A stretch of 64,000 nt of DNA from Bacteroidota bacterium (lineage in GTDB: Bacteria > Bacteroidota > Bacteroidia > Chitinophagales > Chitinophagaceae): the NCBI GenBank assembly GCA_018267955.1, contig JAFDXL010000009.1:62001-126000 (forward strand), written 5' to 3'. The first letter of the stretch is position 1, and the number at the start of each line of letters is the position of its first letter. The notes under the pieces were generated by a model, which saw nothing but the letters and a program-made list of their open reading frames with translations, did not search any database and was not told where the DNA came from. Below, piece after piece: positions 4,566 through 27,891 of the stretch. A program made the position numbers and the translations under genes.

Positions 4566-5624
4566 ATGGGTCAACATATTTTATCTTTTTTGAAATACTG
4601 CGTTTTAACATTCCTGTTTACTTATGGGATATTTTACGCGAGTTATAAATATGGCCGGCCAGACCTTGGCAATTGGGATTTCTTAAAGTATAGCAAGATG
4701 GTGGATTCCCCTTTGAATCTTTCTGCCACCGTTGCGCCGCATGCATTACGACAACTACCTGTATTGGTCGCGTATGCAGCAAAGCAATCCGGACTGTATT
4801 ATCCAAATAAAATATCATTTGCCGGATCCATCACCTACAAAGGGCTAAATATGCAGAAAAACTTCTTTGCTTTATTGCTGGTTAATTATGCTGCTTTTAT
4901 TGTAGCTGTGGCACTAATAATTTGGTTTGTCGTCACCTATGGCGGTCTGCAAAAAAACAATTTCACCTACTTTTCATGCATAGCGCTTTGTAGTGGTTAC
5001 TTCATGGTGCCTGTCAATATAATTGCACCAATGTCGCAAGGGTTTGGCTGGCTGGCATCGGTATTGTTATCTATAGGTATCTTTAGTTCCCGCTATCGAT
5101 ATATAATAATTGGTGGGTTGATAGGCATTTTCTCAAGAGAAACCACCGTGCTTTTTTTTATTGTCCTAAGCACAATAACTGGTGCCGCTTTTTATATAAC
5201 GAAAAGAAAATCTTCATTTTTCTTCACAACCGCTGTTATACTTTTGGGACTATTTGTAACGCTTCTTCTGCTTCGCATCTACTTTGCAACAGGCCAGGAA
5301 AGGCAATTTTCACTTTTGTATCTGGTTGGAAAAACATTTGATAGTGCTACTAAAGCAGATTATTTATTCCAGGCATTTCTTACCCAGGGCTTATTATTTT
5401 TTGTTTTGGCGCTTTGTTATAAAAAAGACAAAAGCCGAACGATATATTATGTAGGTGCAGCAGTATTTATTTTACTTATCGGAGGTTTTGGGGCCGGGCG
5501 TTTGCTTGGCGAAACCTATCCCTACCTGGTACTGCTTTACCTGCTTCCATCAGCCGCCGATCACAATCCGGGCGGTTTGCCTGCTGATCGGCGCTCTGCA
5601 AAAGCCGCCGTTCTGCAAAGCTAA
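4566..5624 (+). CDS. Polytopic inner-membrane protein, GT-C-like layout
   Basis: This is a 352-residue protein with roughly eight to ten hydrophobic segments, for example around residues 8-24, 100-122, 135-152, 158-175, 180-205, 215-238 and 298-328. The first extracytoplasmic loop carries acidic residues (RPDLGNWDF) and an Arg-Leu-Pro stretch (ALRQLPVLVAY), which recalls GT-C glycosyltransferases, but no signature is certain. The final 25 residues (from SAADHNPGG) are hydrophilic and GC-rich, and their DNA contains a perfect 9-bp inverted repeat (5555-5563 with 5585-5593). The C-terminal tail may therefore derive from an inserted palindrome. It precedes an acyltransferase gene, so a surface-glycan role is possible. 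Confidence 0.6.
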   Translation: MGQHILSFLKYCVLTFLFTYGIFYASYKYGRPDLGNWDFLKYSKMVDSPLNLSATVAPHALRQLPVLVAYAAKQSGLYYPNKISFAGSITYKGLNMQKNFFALLLVNYAAFIVAVALIIWFVVTYGGLQKNNFTYFSCIALCSGYFMVPVNIIAPMSQGFGWLASVLLSIGIFSSRYRYIIIGGLIGIFSRETTVLFFIVLSTITGAAFYITKRKSSFFFTTAVILLGLFVTLLLLRIYFATGQERQFSLLYLVGKTFDSATKADYLFQAFLTQGLLFFVLALCYKKDKSRTIYYVGAAVFILLIGGFGAGRLLGETYPYLVLLYLLPSAADHNPGGLPADRRSAKAAVLQS

Positions 5625-5696
5625 AATCCCTTAGTTCAAATATTCTCTGCATTTTCAATACAACGCGGAACGTATATCTTTAACCGCGAAATTGTT

Positions 5697-6752
5697 ATGG
5701 CAACAGGCAAAATGAAATATTATACCGAACTAGACGGGATCAGGGGATTTGCCGCGCTCACCATTTTCTTTTTCCATTTCCTGCATGGGCAAACGTTTAG
5801 CGGCCTGCTGCCCAACATCTTTATGAAGCTGGTTTCCATTGGCCCTACCATGGCCAATCTGTTCTTCGTGCTGTCGGGTTTCCTGATTACACAGATATTG
5901 CTGGATGCAAAGGGTACAAACAATTACTTCTCCTATTATTATGCGCGCCGCATATTGCGGATATTCCCGCTATATTACCTGGCGTTACTGATATATTTCT
6001 TTGGCTTACCCATATTGTATGGCAGGGGGATACCCTCATTTTCGCTGCAATGGTATAACTGGGTGCACCTGCAAAACCTGCCCATCACATTCAGGTGGCC
6101 ACATGCGGGGCCAAAATACCTGTGGTCGCTGGCGGTAGAAGAGCATTTTTATCTCCTATGGCCTATGTTGGTATTGTGGCTCAATAAGCGGCAGCTGATA
6201 AGTGTCTGTATCGGCATTATTTGCCTGGCATTGGCAATGCATATGCTGCTGGCGGCAAACGGATACCCGGTATTCTTCTTCACTTTTACTACTATCGATG
6301 CACTGGCTATGGGTGCTATTGCCGGCATACTCCATTACGATGGCCGGCTTACGACATACAGAAAACGTGTACGGCAATGGATGTATATTTCCGGCATACC
6401 TGCCATTATCCTGTGGTTTGTTTTCTTTGGCACAACAAGCGCGCTATTTAATATAGGCATGCCGCTCTTATTCAACCTGTTTTATGCATCTTCGCTTTCT
6501 TACCTGGTAACGGCCCATCAGGGCCATTTTTTAAAAAGGTCCTTACAAAAAAAGGTACCCGTGTTTACAGGTACTATCAGTTACGGCTTTTTTATCTTTC
6601 ACCCCCTGTGTATCTCTTTTACTCATAGGATATTTAAAAACCAGGCTATGATGCTGCAAATAATTATTGCCCTCATTGCTTCCATAATAGTCGCCACAGC
6701 CAGCTATTATCTCTTTGAAAAAAAGTTCATGCGCCTGAAGAGGTATTTTTGA
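5697..6752 (+). CDS. Acyltransferase family 3 (OafA/YrhL-like) membrane protein
   Basis: This 351-residue protein begins with the family hallmark YYTELDGIRGFAALTIFFFH (residues 7-26), including the Arg-Gly and His positions linked to O-acyl transfer. About ten membrane segments follow. YYARRILRIFPLYYLAL (about 81-97) and the WSLAVEEHFYLLWP segment (about 143-156) are characteristic motifs. Members transfer acetyl or other acyl groups from the cytoplasm to surface sugars such as O-antigen. The neighbour upstream is another polytopic membrane protein, so joint work on a surface polysaccharide is plausible. The actual substrate is not visible. The family call is firm. Confidence 0.88.
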   Translation: MATGKMKYYTELDGIRGFAALTIFFFHFLHGQTFSGLLPNIFMKLVSIGPTMANLFFVLSGFLITQILLDAKGTNNYFSYYYARRILRIFPLYYLALLIYFFGLPILYGRGIPSFSLQWYNWVHLQNLPITFRWPHAGPKYLWSLAVEEHFYLLWPMLVLWLNKRQLISVCIGIICLALAMHMLLAANGYPVFFFTFTTIDALAMGAIAGILHYDGRLTTYRKRVRQWMYISGIPAIILWFVFFGTTSALFNIGMPLLFNLFYASSLSYLVTAHQGHFLKRSLQKKVPVFTGTISYGFFIFHPLCISFTHRIFKNQAMMLQIIIALIASIIVATASYYLFEKKFMRLKRYF

Positions 6753-6868: not shown

Positions 6869-7414
6869 ATGAAAAGAATAATTTTAAACCTGGCAGTTAC
6901 CTTAGACGGTTTTATTGAAGGGCCAAATGGAGAGGTCGATTGGTGCATTATGGACGATGATATGAACTTCGATGGTTTCCTCGATAGCATCGACACCATA
7001 TTTTATGGTAGAGTAAGCTATGATGCCTGGGGTAATTTCCAGCCCGGCGAACATGCTGATCCCGCGGAGAAATTGATGTGGGAAAATATACATGCTAAGA
7101 AGAAGTTCGTTTTTTCAAGCCGCGACAGGCCGGATGATAAGGCTACCTTCCTGACTGCTGATATAGAAAACAAAATAGCAGAAATAAAGAAACAAGGTGG
7201 TAAAGATATATGGCTTTATGGAGGAGCAAACCTGGTAAAGACATTCATAAGCTTAGGGCTTATTGACATCTATAAAATATCTGTTCACCCGGTAGTTTTG
7301 GGCAATGGAAAACCCTTGTTCGAAGATGTGAAAGAACGGATCGGATTGAAACTAACCGAAACAAGAGTTTTTAGATCCGGCGTTGTTGAGCTTACCTACG
7401 AGCTAAAAAAGTAA
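6869..7414 (+). CDS. Dihydrofolate reductase family protein (RibD C-terminal-like)
   Basis: This 181-residue protein starts MKRIILNLAVTLDGFIEGPN, the standard opening of the RibD_C/DHFR-like family. It also has TIFYGRVSYDAW (about residues 43-54), DIWLYGGANLVKTFI (about 113-127) and VHPVVLGNGKPLFED (about 141-155), matching the NADPH-binding and C-terminal signatures. Members of this group in Bacteroidota are stand-alone and their true substrate is generally unknown; they need not be folate or riboflavin enzymes. It stands alone between a REP-like element and a repeat pair, with a plausible AT-rich promoter just upstream (TTTAATTTGCAC). Confidence 0.85.
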   Translation: MKRIILNLAVTLDGFIEGPNGEVDWCIMDDDMNFDGFLDSIDTIFYGRVSYDAWGNFQPGEHADPAEKLMWENIHAKKKFVFSSRDRPDDKATFLTADIENKIAEIKKQGGKDIWLYGGANLVKTFISLGLIDIYKISVHPVVLGNGKPLFEDVKERIGLKLTETRVFRSGVVELTYELKK

Positions 7415-7619: not shown

Positions 7620-10600
7620 TTATTTATCGTCCCATTCTGCATCGTCATCTTGTGATTTAGCTTGCCAGTTGTATGATGCAGCTAATCCATTTAACAGCTT
7701 TGCTGTAAACGGAAATTGAGTTCGAATTTTTTCAGCGTCTTGCAAGAATTTATTTGCCAAATCTCTTTCTTGGTCGCCTCCTGCGAAGGGGCTTCGTACT
7801 GTAATACCCCTTAAATTACGTTTACCGGAATGAAATTCAGTTTCGATATCTCGACATTGGAATTTCTCTAACACAATTCGGACTTCCTCTGTAGGCCAAA
7901 TTCCATCTTCGCCAACAGGTGAATTTGCTAAAATCCTACCTATGTTTCTTAAGGCTGGACCTACTCTACGACGTTCCTTACATTTCTTAATTACTTCTTC
8001 TATCCAATTAATAAGAACTTCTAGGTCTATACTTCCATCCAATTTTGTTCCAGGGACAGTATGAATTGATTGTAGGGTATGAAAACCAACATCTGCTAGT
8101 CGTACATCTGGACCTTCAGCAATATTAGATGTAGATGATTCCTCGCTGCTTTTATACGACCATGTAATCAGGTCAACAAAAATTGACGGGTCTTTAAATA
8201 TCTCCTGATGCAATGCTAATTTAGGTCTGTCATGGCTAAGAGATTTTAGAAATGGAATTTCAAGCTTTGAAATAACCCCTAAATCCGTTTCTAAAGCGTC
8301 TAATTTTTTAAACACTGCAGCAATTGCATGAGGTTGAACATGGATGTGCTTTCCTTCACTTACCCAAGTATTTATATTTTTTGGAAGCAATTCAAGTAAT
8401 CGAATAATCAACTCCTTTTTTATTGAAACTGTCGAGTACGCAATAGATTGAACGAGGTCAGGTGCTCTATTGCAATCAAGCAACTTATTTATCCCAAATT
8501 CAAAGTCTTCCTGATTAAACCTGTCAAAATAAAAAGGATTGATATTATTCCAATAAGCAGATTGAACTTCAATACTTTCAGATTCGAGGGCATCCCAGGT
8601 TTCTTTACTTACTTTAGCAACAAGATAAATTTTGGCTATTCCAACTGAAGATAACCCGTAGCCTTTGGCTTTAGATATAAAATTAATCAATTTTGGCATC
8701 CCCTCTTCGGAATACATCAGGAATAATATTGCGGTACAAATATCAAATACATTATTAGACTTACTTTCTATATTCTCGAGTAAATAGTTTTCAATTCCTT
8801 CAATATTTCTACAATATTTATAAATGGCATATCCAACTTGCGTAGCCTGTTCAACTTGTTCCGATAGTCTTGAAAAGCCTGCAAATCCTTCTGCCTTAAA
8901 AACCTCGTTTATGTTTTCTTCACGTAAAACAGCAACGTACTCTTCCCGCTCTTTATCTGTCGCAAATTTCTTAAGCGTTTTAGGCCAATGACTGTATAGC
9001 CAAATGCCATTTTCAACCGGACTTTCAGGCTCAATAAGTTTTAAAATTGCTTCCAACTTATTAACAACAGTGCTCTCTAGAGCCCAGTCTGTATCGTCAT
9101 AAGTCCTATGACGATCTATTTCGTCAATTAATAAATTTCTAAGACTACTCCATTGATCCTTATCCGAATCTTCTTTTACTGCGTTTTCAAGTTCGGTTAA
9201 CAGTTCATGTAAATCAACAAACCCATCCATTGCTGATAAATGTTCTACTAATGATGTCCATTTTTCTGCATCATTGCTAAGTTGTGAACGAATCAGTACA
9301 ATTAAAGATTGCACAAATTCTATATGTTCAGCTTGTGTAGCTCTCTGCCTATAATCTTGTGCCCAATTCCTCCAGTGCGGAAGGTCTCTTAATGTCGGAA
9401 GGTCATCATGCAATACAGCCAAAAGTAATTTCCATCCTACTTTTGGAAATTTTTCAAGTAACGTCTTCAAAGTCGCAATCCTACCATTATCTTCGATTTC
9501 ACTGAACCTTATCCAAGAATGAAACAATGTAGTTAGACTTTCAAACGGTCTATTACTAAATCTGCCGCCTGGATCTATTTCAGATAATTGTGCGAGTAGA
9601 ATTGCACAACGGGTAAAATATTCATCCGACCAAGCTAAACACTCTATTGCCCACAGTAGTCCACTATGGTAACACGAGCCCCAGAATGAATCTTTACCTT
9701 CTTGATTGAACAAATCTAAAAATACATTTGAACCGTTTGTAACACCGTCTTCAATAACTAACAAAACTTCTTCTGGGGATGCTTCAACATAGATAGACAA
9801 TTTAGTTCCGTGTGTTGCCCAAAACTTCCAATCAGTTTTACCAATTTCTACCAGTCTACGTAATACATTACGGCAGGCATGTTGAACTGATGCATCAAGT
9901 TTTTCAGACCTGCTGCCCATCAACGCAAGTGTAACTGAAATACCATTTTTAATAGTCCCTGAATACGTTGTGGTCTTGCCTAAAATGTTTGCCATATACC
10001 GTTGTCCTTCGTCTAGATCTAGAGCGGGAGATAATTCCGTCAATATTTCTGAAGAGACTTCAATAAACGTACTCAAATCAGCTTTTGAAATATATGGAGA
10101 AAGTAAGTCCCAAGCTTCTTCATGTGAAGTGAGCCGCCAATTGTTCCCTATTTTGCGAAGTGGACTATCAGGTATATTTAATAATTTTTGGTAATCCCTT
10201 TGAATATCTTCAATACTACACCTACCTAATTTTGCAAGCTGGTTCAAATCTGCTTCACTTTCAGTCCATTGACCCAATAATAATGCTGGAATGAGAATGT
10301 GTGCCTCTTCAAAGGTTGCCCATTTCGGCTTAAAACCGCCAGCACGCATTATTAATCTCCGTCTTACACTTGGTAGATGACGTCCAGTAACGCGTAAGAT
10401 TGCATCCGCTTCCTCTCTTGAAAGCCCCATTTTGCCTAAACTATCCATAAATGCATCCCGCTTTGTTCGTGGTAAATCAATACCCAAACCGTTTTCAGTT
10501 TCATCTTTTCCGAGTGGAAATAAAACATGATGTCCATTTAAGATACTCTCATTCAGCGAAAAATCATCGCTAAACATTGGGATTAAAATTGCTGGCGTTT

Positions 10601-25038: not shown

Positions 25039-26010
25039 ATGCCAGTAAAGCTGCAACGCAATATCGCTCTTCTTTCAGTTGTTTTATTTATTGGCAAATT
25101 AGTTGCCTGGTATCTTACCCATTCGGTAACCATACTTACAGATGCGCTGGAAAGTACCGTCAATGTGATAGCTGGCTTTATTGGATTGTACAGCATTATA
25201 CTTGCTGCAAGACCAAGAGATAAAAACCATCCGTATGGGCATGGTAAAGCAGAGTTTGTATCATCGGCAGTGGAGGGCTCCCTGATCTTTATAGCCGGTT
25301 TGATGATCATCTACGAAGCGGTAGATAAATTATTGCATCCGCAGGAACTGCATAAGCTGGATGTAGGTATCTATATCACTGTTGCTACAGGTATCATCAA
25401 TTATTTTGTGGGTGCTTATGCCGTGAAGCAGGGTAAGAAGAACCGTTCGCTGATAATTGAATCCGCAGGTACGCATTTAAAGTCAGATGCTTATTCTACG
25501 TTTGCAATAGTTGTAGGGCTTGTGCTCATCATTTTTACCAAACAGGCATGGCTGGATAGCGCTGTTGCCATGATCTTTTCTGTGGTGATCATGGTTACCG
25601 GCTACAAAGTAGTGCGGAGATCGCTGGCAGGTATCATGGACGAGGCAGATGAGAAAGTGCTGGAAGAAGTAATAGCAACCTTAAATAAATACCGCAAACC
25701 GCAATGGATAGACCTGCACAATCTGCGTGTGATACAATATGGTGATGTATTGCATATAGATACGCATATGACGCTGCCCTGGTATTATACGGTACGTGAT
25801 GCAGAGCGGGAAATACATGCACTGGAAGACCTCGCACGGCAGCATTATGGCGATAAGGTAGAACTGTTCATACATATAGATGGTTGTATGCCATATCAAT
25901 GCAAACTGTGTAGTGTGGATCCCTGCGATGTAAGACAGGAACCGCTAAAGCAATTACAAACCTGGACTTTGGAGAATGTGCTGTTAGATAGCAAGCACGG
26001 AAAGGAGTAA
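25039..26010 (+). CDS. Cation diffusion facilitator (CDF) family metal exporter
   Basis: This 323-residue protein has six membrane segments with the CDF pattern LTDALESTVNVIAGFI (site A Asp) in helix 2, HPYGHGKAEFVSSAVEG in the loop and helix 3, and ESAGTHLKSDAYSTFAI in helix 5. A cytoplasmic C-terminal domain spans about residues 210-323, ending with a Cys-rich motif (CMPYQCKLCSVDPC) that probably binds zinc or another metal. It exports divalent metals, most likely zinc, cobalt or iron, using the proton gradient. Metal specificity is not resolved by sequence. Confidence 0.9.
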   Translation: MPVKLQRNIALLSVVLFIGKLVAWYLTHSVTILTDALESTVNVIAGFIGLYSIILAARPRDKNHPYGHGKAEFVSSAVEGSLIFIAGLMIIYEAVDKLLHPQELHKLDVGIYITVATGIINYFVGAYAVKQGKKNRSLIIESAGTHLKSDAYSTFAIVVGLVLIIFTKQAWLDSAVAMIFSVVIMVTGYKVVRRSLAGIMDEADEKVLEEVIATLNKYRKPQWIDLHNLRVIQYGDVLHIDTHMTLPWYYTVRDAEREIHALEDLARQHYGDKVELFIHIDGCMPYQCKLCSVDPCDVRQEPLKQLQTWTLENVLLDSKHGKE

Positions 26011-26085
26011 TGTATTTAATATCGCAAATGTGTATGCTAACTCAATAGCATTATATATTTTCACACATACTTATCCAAACTATCT

Positions 26086-26655
26086 ATGAATACTTTCCTT
26101 CGATTGAAGCATTGGCAATTGTTTTTACTAGGATTTATTTTGCCTGTAATTTGCCAGCCTTTCGCTTTAGCCGCCCTTACAAAATTTCACAATGCTGCAC
26201 TAGGCATGGGACTATTTCTGCTAATGATGTTATTGTGCTTAATACCGTTATTCAGTTGGTTTTATGCACTCGGAACCAATCTATATCCTAAACTGCCGGA
26301 GATGGCCAATATGAAGTTGAAAAAATTTAAAATATTTTGGTTAATACCCGTACTTTATATTGGTACGATTATGATTTTTATCGGTACCAAATTTGTACTT
26401 GGTATCGAAGCTTTAAATATTCCCGGTGCAGTTGTACTAATCGTGGTATTGTTACACCTATTTTCCATGTTCTGCATATTTTATTGCCTTTACTTTGTTG
26501 CAAAATCATTAAAAGCTGTAGAATTAGAACGCCCTGTTTCATTCAGTGATTATGCAGGTGAGTTTTTCCTGATATGGTTTTTCCCCATAGGTGTGTGGTT
26601 TATTCAGCCAAGGATCAATAGTATATTTAGCGATAGGGCTCCCGAGGCTTATTGA
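26086..26655 (+). CDS. Polytopic membrane protein of unknown function
   Basis: This 189-residue protein has four clear hydrophobic segments (about residues 10-32, 40-63, 85-105 and 115-140) and a fifth weaker one near 162-175 (FFLIWFFPIGVWFIQPRIN). The last segment, with FFPIG followed by WFIQPRIN, is a recurrent feature of small Bacteroidota membrane proteins. Its stop codon is eight bases before the repeat structure at 26664. I cannot assign a function. Confidence 0.6.
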   Translation: MNTFLRLKHWQLFLLGFILPVICQPFALAALTKFHNAALGMGLFLLMMLLCLIPLFSWFYALGTNLYPKLPEMANMKLKKFKIFWLIPVLYIGTIMIFIGTKFVLGIEALNIPGAVVLIVVLLHLFSMFCIFYCLYFVAKSLKAVELERPVSFSDYAGEFFLIWFFPIGVWFIQPRINSIFSDRAPEAY

Positions 26656-26663
26656 TGTCATGG

Positions 26664-26828
26664 GTGTCCACGCTGTCCATAGCGTCCATATTCTTTTTTC
26701 GTGGACAGTTGGACAGTTCTGCTCCAGTTGCTCCAGTGCTCCACAATTACTGAATGGAGCAGTGGAGCAAGACTACTGTCCCACTTTGTCCCGGTTGTCC
26801 CATAATCCTGGTGTGGGACAGTGGGACA
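26664..26828. repeat. Left arm of a nested inverted-repeat structure (three palindromic modules)
   Basis: Three modules follow one another. Module A (26664-26717) uses TGTCCA words and then GGACA words. Module B (26721-26769) uses GCTCCA then TGGAGC. Module C (26776-26828) uses TGTCCC then GGGACA. Each module is itself an imperfect palindrome, so the arm can fold as three stem-loops. The same modules occur in reverse order and orientation at 27217-27424. It starts 9 bases after one stop codon and ends one base before another. Confidence 0.9.
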
Positions 26829-26829
26829 T

Positions 26830-27156
26830 TTAGTAATCTAATTCAATAATTTCTTTTATAATCCCTTCTCCTATTTGTAATATCCCATTATTGTATAAAA
26901 TGAATGGCATATCAGGTGCAATATTATCTTTGATTAAAGAGAAAGCAGTAATAATAATCTTTGCTTTTGCTGATTCACCAGCACAGTTCTTTTCTTTATC
27001 TATGAAATAACACTTTCCTGAGAATAGCGACGAATGGAAATCAAATTTTAAATGAATATAAGAGTCTGTTGGTAAACATCGTATTTCACCTTTAAGCAGC
27101 ATGGGAAAGAAATGAAGCGTAACAACAATGTGACTTCGATATGTAAGTAGTTCCAT
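26830..27156 (-). CDS. Small protein resembling EF-Tu domain III, inside the inverted repeats
   Basis: Best start is the ATG at 27156 (108 residues); the frame is open to a TTG at 27186, giving 118. The end of the protein, KIIITAFSLI followed by PDMPFILYNNGILQIGEGI, lines up by eye with the EF-Tu C-terminal domain pattern (strand, a Gly-x-Arg-Phe-Ala-Ile-like turn, then VGAGVV). The middle (IHLKFDFHSSLFSGKCYF) fits its preceding strand. So a stand-alone EF-Tu domain III-like fold is suggested; function is unknown. It is A+T-rich, lies between the two repeat arms and touches the left one. Alternative: an unrelated small barrel. Confidence 0.5.
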   Translation of the reverse strand: MELLTYRSHIVVTLHFFPMLLKGEIRCLPTDSYIHLKFDFHSSLFSGKCYFIDKEKNCAGESAKAKIIITAFSLIKDNIAPDMPFILYNNGILQIGEGIIKEIIELDY

Positions 27157-27216
27157 AGGTGATATTATTACTTTATCTGAATTCAATAGTATATATACTT
27201 ATTCATACTTCACTTA

Positions 27217-27424
27217 CTGTCCCAGTTGTCCCACCAGTGGACAGTGGGACAACCGGGACAGTGTGGGACAATATAATAACAGACAATAATACTATACTGA
27301 TATTCCTTCTTTTGCTCCATTGCTCCATCCGGGAGCATTGGAGCATGTGGAGCAGAGTGGAGCAAGCTATACTGTCCAAGTGTCCACGAAAAAGGAATAT
27401 GGACAGCGTGGACACCATGGACAC
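27217..27424. repeat. Right arm of the nested inverted-repeat structure
   Basis: Mirror image of the left arm: module C' (27217-27270), a 43-base A+T-rich spacer not present on the left, module B' (27314-27364), and module A' (27371-27424). Reverse-complementing A' and aligning it without gaps to A gives 46 identical of 54 positions. The arm ends two bases before the rnhA stop codon. Confidence 0.9.
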
Positions 27425-27426
27425 TT

Positions 27427-27891
27427 TTAATTCCCGCTTTCGTAGCCTGCATCAACTAACCATTTACCGCTATCTGCTGCTGCAGTGGCCAGCTGGTCGC
27501 AACGGTTGTTCATTGGGTTGTCGGCATGGCCCTTTACCCATACAAATTTGATGCGATGCTTGTTGTGATACTTCAGGTATTGTTGCCAGAGGTCTACATT
27601 TTTTTTATCCTTAAAGCCTTTTTTCACCCAGCCAAATACCCATCCCTTTTCTACTGAGTTGACTACGTATGATGAGTCGCTGTATATAACAACGTCTAAG
27701 CCCTCTCGGGTAAGGCTTTGCAGTGCTACTACCACGGCCATCAGTTCCATCCTGTTATTGGTAGTAAGCCTATAGCCCTGCGAAAACTCCTTTACTGTTT
27801 GTCCCCATTGCATTACGATACCATATCCGCCCGGCCCGGGGTTACCTCTTGCTGCTCCGTCTGTGTAAATAATTAATTGTTGTTGCGACAT
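27427..27891 (-). CDS. rnhA: Ribonuclease HI
   Basis: This 154-residue enzyme has all catalytic residues: D11 (YTDGAARGNPGPGG), E49 (NNRMELMAV), D72 (YSDSSYV) and D132 (RCDQLA), with H122 in KGHADNPMNN. It degrades the RNA strand of RNA-DNA hybrids. The C-terminal stop lies two bases from the right arm of the inverted-repeat structure, so its terminator, if any, is provided by that structure. Confidence 0.96.
   Translation of the reverse strand: MSQQQLIIYTDGAARGNPGPGGYGIVMQWGQTVKEFSQGYRLTTNNRMELMAVVVALQSLTREGLDVVIYSDSSYVVNSVEKGWVFGWVKKGFKDKKNVDLWQQYLKYHNKHRIKFVWVKGHADNPMNNRCDQLATAAADSGKWLVDAGYESGN

Follow-up and report, generated by a model that had tools for sequence, protein, structure and literature searches.

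Nested inverted word arrays around one gene beside rnhA: a probable orphan of a helicase-linked cassette family in Chitinophagaceae

The window, a 64-kb stretch of a Chitinophagaceae genome, contains three nested pairs of arms built from short repeated words around a single open reading frame next to rnhA. From sequence comparison, it is interpreted with moderate confidence as an orphan that lacks the helicase of its family, the address-armed cargo cassettes, in which the arms would be helicase addresses, probably origin-like, that are exchanged by recombination. An arm is taken to be an iteron-like array, in which a word of 7-8 bp occurs two to four times and is followed by a short core and the inverted word. 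It would be the address bound by an AAA_25 helicase of the DnaB family that carries a helix-turn-helix (HTH) at its C-terminus. In congeners, the complete form consists of helicase, arm, usually one cargo gene, and inverted arm. The features of the region are listed below (>, forward word; <, inverted word).

25039..26010, + strand: cation efflux gene (PF01545), which conservedly flanks the insertion site on the left
26086..26655, + strand: ORF of 189 aa, left flank
26664..26717, + strand: arm A, word TGTCCA, pattern >>><<
26720..26769, + strand: arm B, word GCTCCA, pattern >>><<
26777..26828, + strand: arm C, word TGTCCC, pattern >>><<, edge at most 2 bases from the cargo stop codon
26830..27186, - strand: cargo ORF of 118 aa, between arms C and C'
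27218..27270, - strand: arm C', word TGTCCC, pattern >><<<, inverted copy of C
27313..27363, - strand: arm B', word GCTCCA, pattern >><<<<, inverted copy of B
27371..27424, - strand: arm A', word TGTCCA, pattern >><<<, inverted copy of A
27427..27891, - strand: rnhA (RNase H, PF00075), right flank, present in 15/15 genus genomes

The module order A-B-C followed by C'-B'-A' around a single ORF, proposed in an earlier note on this DNA, was confirmed by sequence comparison and word counts. The outer pair A/A' (26664-26717 and 27371-27424) is 54 nt long, as described there, and 85% complementary; the inner pairs are complementary at 79% over 47 nt and at 75% over 44 nt. Words were counted with 5-base cores, and with a 4-base core for B'. 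Arms A, B and C each have three forward and two inverted words, C' and A' have two and three, and B' has two and four. The note had also described each module as a palindrome by itself, and all six indeed fold as hairpins (z -2.8 to -4.5). Its placement of the arm edges near the stops of convergent genes holds as well, with the left arm starting 9 bases beyond the 189-aa ORF and the right arm ending 3 bases ahead of the rnhA stop. Since the enclosed ORF ends at most 2 bases from arm C, the cassette would read from right to left. The 118-aa product gave no match in Pfam or PADLOC; weak relatives were found in three congeners (G013, G008 and G003).

A strict scan for hairpins of 6-base words detected three groups in the 64-kb window, all in this region, and none in ten first-order Markov copies of the window. 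With 5-base words, four groups with at least two matches were obtained, three of them here, compared to 0 or 1 in the Markov copies. A similar scan gave no group in 400 kb of the own genome and one in 400 kb of a congener, with none in five third-order Markov copies of each 400-kb sample. Degenerate arms, such as those of G013 and G011, escape the detector. Both the TGTCC and the GCTCC pattern have a single site in the own 4.18-Mb genome, which is this region; for other words, the own-genome scan covered the window and the 400-kb sample. The earlier note had suggested a search for multiple copies within the genome, and this search was negative, with one copy only of these words.

The insertion site was compared across a genus sample of 15 genomes, the own genome (G000) included, and was resolved in 14 of them, G007 being the exception. 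Four genomes (G001, G003, G005, G014) have an empty site, with 31-36 bp between the aligned convergent coding ends. Inserts with word arms are present in four (G000, G010, G006, G008) and inserts without strict arms in six (G002, G004, G009, G011, G012, G013). Different gene cassettes lie between the same conserved genes at rnhA and also at the MiaB and FdhD sites. The same three-word nested arms occur in G010 around a degraded copy of the ORF with an interrupted frame. A target-site duplication was unreadable, the flanks of empty and filled rnhA sites being too diverged. A 652-bp stretch (26014-26665), which holds the 189-aa ORF and ends at the outer edge of arm A, is present in the own genome and absent from G010. 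Paired arms flanking different ORFs in combination with empty sites had been named in the earlier note as support for a mobile element, and both were found in the relatives: besides the four empty sites, paired arms of one word occur in at least 11 of 14 congeners if helicase loci are counted, the exceptions being G001, G003 and G014.

At the MiaB site, TGTCCA arms surround a 218-aa protein in G002, a TIR protein in G009 and a 261-aa protein in G006; the 218-aa and 261-aa proteins matched no PADLOC model. A TGTCCA helicase is located there in G002, whereas the arms in G009 and G006 have no helicase nearby. At the FdhD site, TGTCCC arms enclose differing genes in G002, G009 and G013. In the loci L066 and L074, the flanks share 92% identity as far as the innermost left arm, its inner edge included, and homology returns from the right innermost arm; the cargo in between is unrelated (GldM-like versus SIR2-like). 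Near-identical arm copies are present at different sites, with 92-98% identity within G004 and up to 100% within G009, and one arm is 98% identical between G007 and G004. All multi-word elements seen keep the mirror order (the window and L060; L063; L066, L068 and L074; L221; L075). L068, L221 and L075 each contain one module that has no counterpart.

Three further observations were made at these loci. A second dispersed repeat (TCATTGCGAGG..CGAAGCAATCTC type) forms an inverted pair just inside the arms, at the following positions.

L064, about 7640-7680 and 8402-8434
L071, about 7740-7780 and 8825-8862
L276, about 6170-6210 and 7150-7180
L215, about 5540-5700, an empty palindrome at the rnhA site

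A GTAACTG / CAGTTAC motif was recognized by eye in the cores of arms with different words at several loci (L061 8586-8636; L277 6896-6946; L064 7531-7592; L068 56-106). Small proteins resembling GIY-YIG and DUF559 endonucleases, also assigned by eye, adjoin arms and helicases (L064 8673-9047; L428 2886-3182; L075 9127-9441).

For TGTCCC, 57 of 92 strict-hairpin loci had, among the matches listed, an ORF of the helicase/primase cluster within 1.5 kb. These 92 loci were taken from the genome and viral collections plus five added congener loci, and ORFs were clustered by single linkage. Helicase loci (20 in the genus, 9 in the wider family) were collected by protein homology and not by arm. The 20 RepA-like helicase copies of the genus are distributed over 10 of 15 genomes, and the 9 copies of the wider family over 6 of 147 sampled genomes. 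A protein search of the own genome (98% complete) gave no homologue of the AAA_25-HTH helicase. In G013 (91% complete), no helicase was detected and arms persist. The genome that shares the nested arms of the window, G010, has a helicase whose own word is the word of arm B.

The helicase is an AAA_25 protein of the DnaB family with a C-terminal HTH. Its predicted fold (mean pLDDT 77.5) matched DnaB helicases best, with TM-scores near 0.5. The C-terminus was modelled as three helices, the last of which spans helix positions 2-9. Comparison to PDB by sequence gave no match with one sequence, and two matches, in the HTH region only, with a profile. The array starts at most about 25 bp from the helicase stop in 27 of 28 parsed genus and family loci; the array word of L416 had no clear call.

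The complete cassette was reconstructed from the genus loci. An array follows 0-17 bp after the helicase stop in 19 of 20 loci, L445 being degenerate. Again in 19 of 20 loci, the word recurs in a second array 0.2-3.2 kb past the helicase stop; that of L453 is atypical, and L445 is without a clean arm pair. With words of other loci as a control, a second array was found in 1 of 346 tests. In left arms, forward words outnumber inverted ones in 11 of 19 cases and equal them in 6; in right arms, inverted words outnumber forward ones in 10 of 19 and equal them in 5. The window arms have this polarity. The exact combination of >>><< with >><<< is present in L440, L450 and L456. The left arm lies between the helicase and the cargo start, and the listed cargo is co-directional with the helicase. 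The distance from the cargo end to the right arm is 1-16 bp in 12 of 15 loci measured. A DUF6371 primase-like gene follows the cassette in at least 6 of 20. Arm cores have a median length of 14 nt. The pooled GC content of 43 arm cores was 0.40, compared to about 0.42 in genome samples, and 21 of the 43 were below 0.42. An AT-rich unwinding element beside the repeats is not supported by this pooled value, which refers to the cores.

G006, G002 and G009 share one site where the helicase has a conserved core, and the HTH, both arms and the cargo differ. Between G006 and G002, homology ends about 45 codons before the helicase end, just ahead of the HTH, and returns where the right arm has its outer edge. 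From the breakpoints we infer that cassettes move by recombination in conserved flanks, the helicase core or arms. No integrase was found in the ORF lists of armed segments or in Pfam and PADLOC scans of the cargo, and no Y1 transposase (RAYT; Y1_Tnp) was found in the arm-rich genomes G002 and G006.

Covariation of recognition helix and word was analyzed with 27 helicases; L416 was left out, and three words were corrected by hand. Lysine at helix position 2 coincides with C at word position 4 in 8 of 8 helicases, and C without this lysine occurs in 0 of 19. Arginine at helix position 7 goes with CA at word positions 6-7 in 17 of 18 cases (one CN counted), lysine with AC or GC at these positions in 5 of 5, and asparagine or isoleucine with A at word position 6 in 4 of 4; L439 is an exception to the position-7 rule. 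Permutation gave p = 0.0002 for each of the pairs 2/word 4 and 7/word 6 (45 position pairs computed), values that are not independent-sample probabilities because the 27 helicases are related. A collapsed set of 20 helicases, in which relatedness is not fully removed, gave the same p for both pairs. Word distance correlated with helix distance (r 0.51) and hardly with helicase core distance (r 0.09; 312 pairs). Core identity is at least 90% in 11 pairs; in 8 of these, helix position 2 or 7 differs together with the word, and in 2 these positions and the word agree. In L435/L436, helix positions 2 and 7 are alike and the word differs elsewhere, so the word is not wholly determined by these two positions.

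Arrays selected by the TGTCCC pattern gave a corresponding result. The combination K2/R7 was present in 18 of 19 readable helices (from 60 cluster ORFs), a set in which two helices are 1.2 kb away from the array and three loci (L125, L142, L148) are near-identical. The one deviating helix is that of L147, a G009 helicase that belongs to the covariation set and has its own TGTTCA array. The covariation between helix and word points to binding of the arms by the helicase. Within G012 (L425/L435), G011 (L426/L436) and G010 (L427/L437), pairs of helicase copies have cores that are 96-99% identical and differ in recognition helix, word and cargo. These pairs suggest homogenisation within a genome and an incompatibility-like rule.

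Helicase homologues on viral contigs, found by protein, had arrays at the 3' end in 14 of 14 cases (11 by strict scan, 3 by eye). All 13 readable helices (three by eye) fit the helix-word rule, although some viral homologues closely resemble helicases of the family and are not fully independent of the covariation set. The combinations were as follows.

Helix SLG[AT]VNK, word TGTTCAC, five
Helix SHMKVSR, word TGTAACA, three
Helix SHQ.AKR, word TGTAACA, two
Helix GKSTVSR, word TGTCCC, two
Helix SEGAVRK, word TGCGTAC, one

Helicase, DUF6371 and mobilization genes were present in both Bacteroidales plasmids examined, of 8 matching. The half that was examined of a Bacteroides fragilis plasmid of 10 kb (L472, CP103138.1) contains helicase, DUF6371 and mobilization genes and cfxA. 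TGTCCC arrays also occur within long phage primase-like genes, at their 3' end (L303, L310, L315, L316 and other viral contigs), with protein tails such as GQVGT..LGQ; a pattern search revealed no C-terminal HTH in these array-bearing genes.

Helicase-linked cargo matched PADLOC defence models in 12 of 20 loci at E <= 1e-4 and in 8 of 20 at E <= 1e-10; the scan of L455 covered one of three ORFs, and some cargo sequences were incomplete. In a control with 20 random G007 ORFs of 250-650 aa, one matched PADLOC, at 5e-5 (Fisher p = 0.0004). The matches were bSEFIR (2e-95), PDC-S31 (1e-51), PDC-S04 (9e-35), ThsA-like SIR2 (2e-30), AbiU/AIPR (3e-29), OLD (2e-24), GajA-like (4e-23), TIR/spbK (1e-14), TIR (1e-6) and three weak ones (9e-7 to 8e-6); those of OLD and GajA stem partly from shared ATPase domains. 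In orphan cassettes, TIR-TM (L071, 7e-63) and SIR2 (L074) were found, and the cargo of L064, L066, L067, L073 and L276 gave no match. The cargo scans with Pfam and PADLOC leave out L065, L068, L069, L076, L221, L217 and the 169-aa ORF of L070. GldM-like proteins with gliding motility domains were observed as cassette cargo in L063 (6940-8427) and L066 (7149-8639).

The cassettes resemble iteron replicons and phage satellites, in which short repeats are read by a cognate initiator and the DNA-binding part of the initiator is exchanged together with the repeats. They differ in that the presumed reader is an AAA_25 helicase with a C-terminal HTH, that the cargo, usually one gene, is enclosed by two inverted arrays, and that arrays nest; furthermore, the window copy has no detected Rep, and the cores are not generally AT-rich. 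Repeats beside an initiator gene, as expected of an iteron module, are found in the relatives and not in the window, whose genome has no detected helicase. SaPI and P4 are satellites of the iteron type, whose initiator reads short repeats. The array position found here, at the 3' end, agrees with the location of SaPI origins; the lack of AT-rich cores does not fit. For PLE, the specificity of RepA for its origin, the iterons, the swapping of the replicon as a module and its targeting by an origin-directed nuclease were reported (PMC8263062), and the replicon was described (PMC7145576). The Bacteroidales modules of AAA_25 gene, array and DUF6371 gene share the helicase family, the word arrays at the 3' end and the helix-word rule. 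In the loci seen, DUF6371 follows the array, whereas in the genus cargo and a second inverted array lie in between.

Minimal mobile elements of Neisseria are strain-specific whole-gene cassettes, placed between conserved genes by homologous recombination (PMC3898611). They are similar in that differing cassettes occupy the place between the same conserved genes; their description in the cited passages names no paired address arrays or linked helicase. MITEs and Correia elements are dispersed inverted repeats without transposase (PMC3898611). Like the element in the window, they have terminal inverted repeats, but the words of the arms studied here match a helicase HTH. Integron cassettes have directly repeated recombination sites, and the arms here are inverted. 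The origin-directed nuclease Odn binds the iterons of a rival element in a Rep-like manner (PMC8263062). Odn cuts its target, and such targeting is a possible pressure that diversifies the words. Among the papers listed by searches of an open-licence library, no title or abstract opening described word-hairpin arms, cargo-flanking paired iteron arrays or this helix-word code.

In the favoured reading, the arms would be origins or helicase-loading sites. A cassette would spread by helicase-driven replication of the armed segment and RecA recombination in the flanks, the helicase core or the arms. The three nested pairs of the window would be addresses of up to three past helicases, and nesting by insertion of cassettes inside older arms is the best guess. 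The reading is weakened by the composition of the arm cores, which are not generally AT-rich as those of an origin might be. Further points against it are that no helicase homologue was found in the own genome, where nothing known reads the arms, that the window cargo is not defence-like and has a broken frame in G010, and that six of the 15 genomes have inserts at this site with no strict arms. The same composition is compatible with a regulatory alternative, which we regard as rather unlikely: the AAA_25-HTH protein would be a repressor or sensor and the arms operators flanking potentially toxic cargo, and the bound protein would loop the DNA and keep the cargo off until infection, the arms being retained for control and not for replication. 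The position of the left arm ahead of a co-directional cargo gene in complete loci agrees with this view, as does the frequency of effector-like cargo (TIR, SIR2, bSEFIR, AIPR, OLD). It is disfavoured by the Bacteroidales and viral loci seen, where the next gene is DUF6371 or primase-like and not an effector, and by the persistence of arms in G000 and G013 (91% complete), where no helicase was detected. A further alternative, put forward tentatively, is that the window copy is a fossil of former helicase elements that has no present function, with slowly decaying arms and cargo swapped by ordinary homologous recombination in the flanks. A relic would be compatible with the favoured origin of the arms. 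It would fit the lack of a detected helicase in G000, the broken cargo frame in G010 and the TGTCCA arms of the MiaB site, which have no helicase nearby in G009 and G006, unlike in G002. Against it, the words in all six arms are largely intact, the 3+2 polarity is kept, and arms at 75-85% complementarity still fold strongly.

The earlier note had read the region as a non-autonomous mobile element or a paired terminator array. Paired arms around different ORFs and empty sites partly support its first part; the terminator array was not upheld by a consensus scan, in which one weak site overlapped arm A and three sites were present in a 2.1-kb region, compared to 1.7 (sd 1.5) in shuffles. Paired bidirectional terminators that insulate the cargo gene would account for the way in which arms abut stops, 0-17 bp after helicases (19/20) and 1-16 bp after cargo (12/15 measured), but they need no words that match a protein helix, and this explanation is very improbable. 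Transposon ends explain the arms less well than helicase-address arrays do, as the arms follow an AAA_25 gene and covary with its recognition helix. A classical MITE-like transposon, with the arms as terminal inverted repeats and a transposase acting in trans, would explain long inverted arms, near-identical arm copies at different sites and empty sites. It is scarcely credible in view of words that follow the HTH code of the helicase and of a single copy of these words in the own genome; Y1 transposases, the sole type searched, were not found in G002 and G006, and a target-site duplication was unreadable in the diverged flanks. An improbable reading regards the arms as decoy origins that copy the address words of incoming phage and plasmid helicases, so that the helicase of the invader would bind the chromosomal arms and fire, copy or derepress the defence gene between them. 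If this were true, nested words would widen the range of replicons detected, and an arms race would keep the helix-word code in flux.

For the helicase-address reading, the data suggest a protein-to-DNA code that relates two positions of the recognition helix to positions 4, 6 and 7 of a 7-base word. For this replicative helicase family, found on phage contigs, plasmids and Bacteroidota chromosomes, the sequence of a helicase could then allow much of its address word to be predicted. The cassettes would represent a format for mostly single, often defence-like genes that are exchanged together with the recognition helix of the helicase. Antivirus genes may be sought in such paired arrays, a new location for them, and how they are shuffled could be modelled in a testable way.
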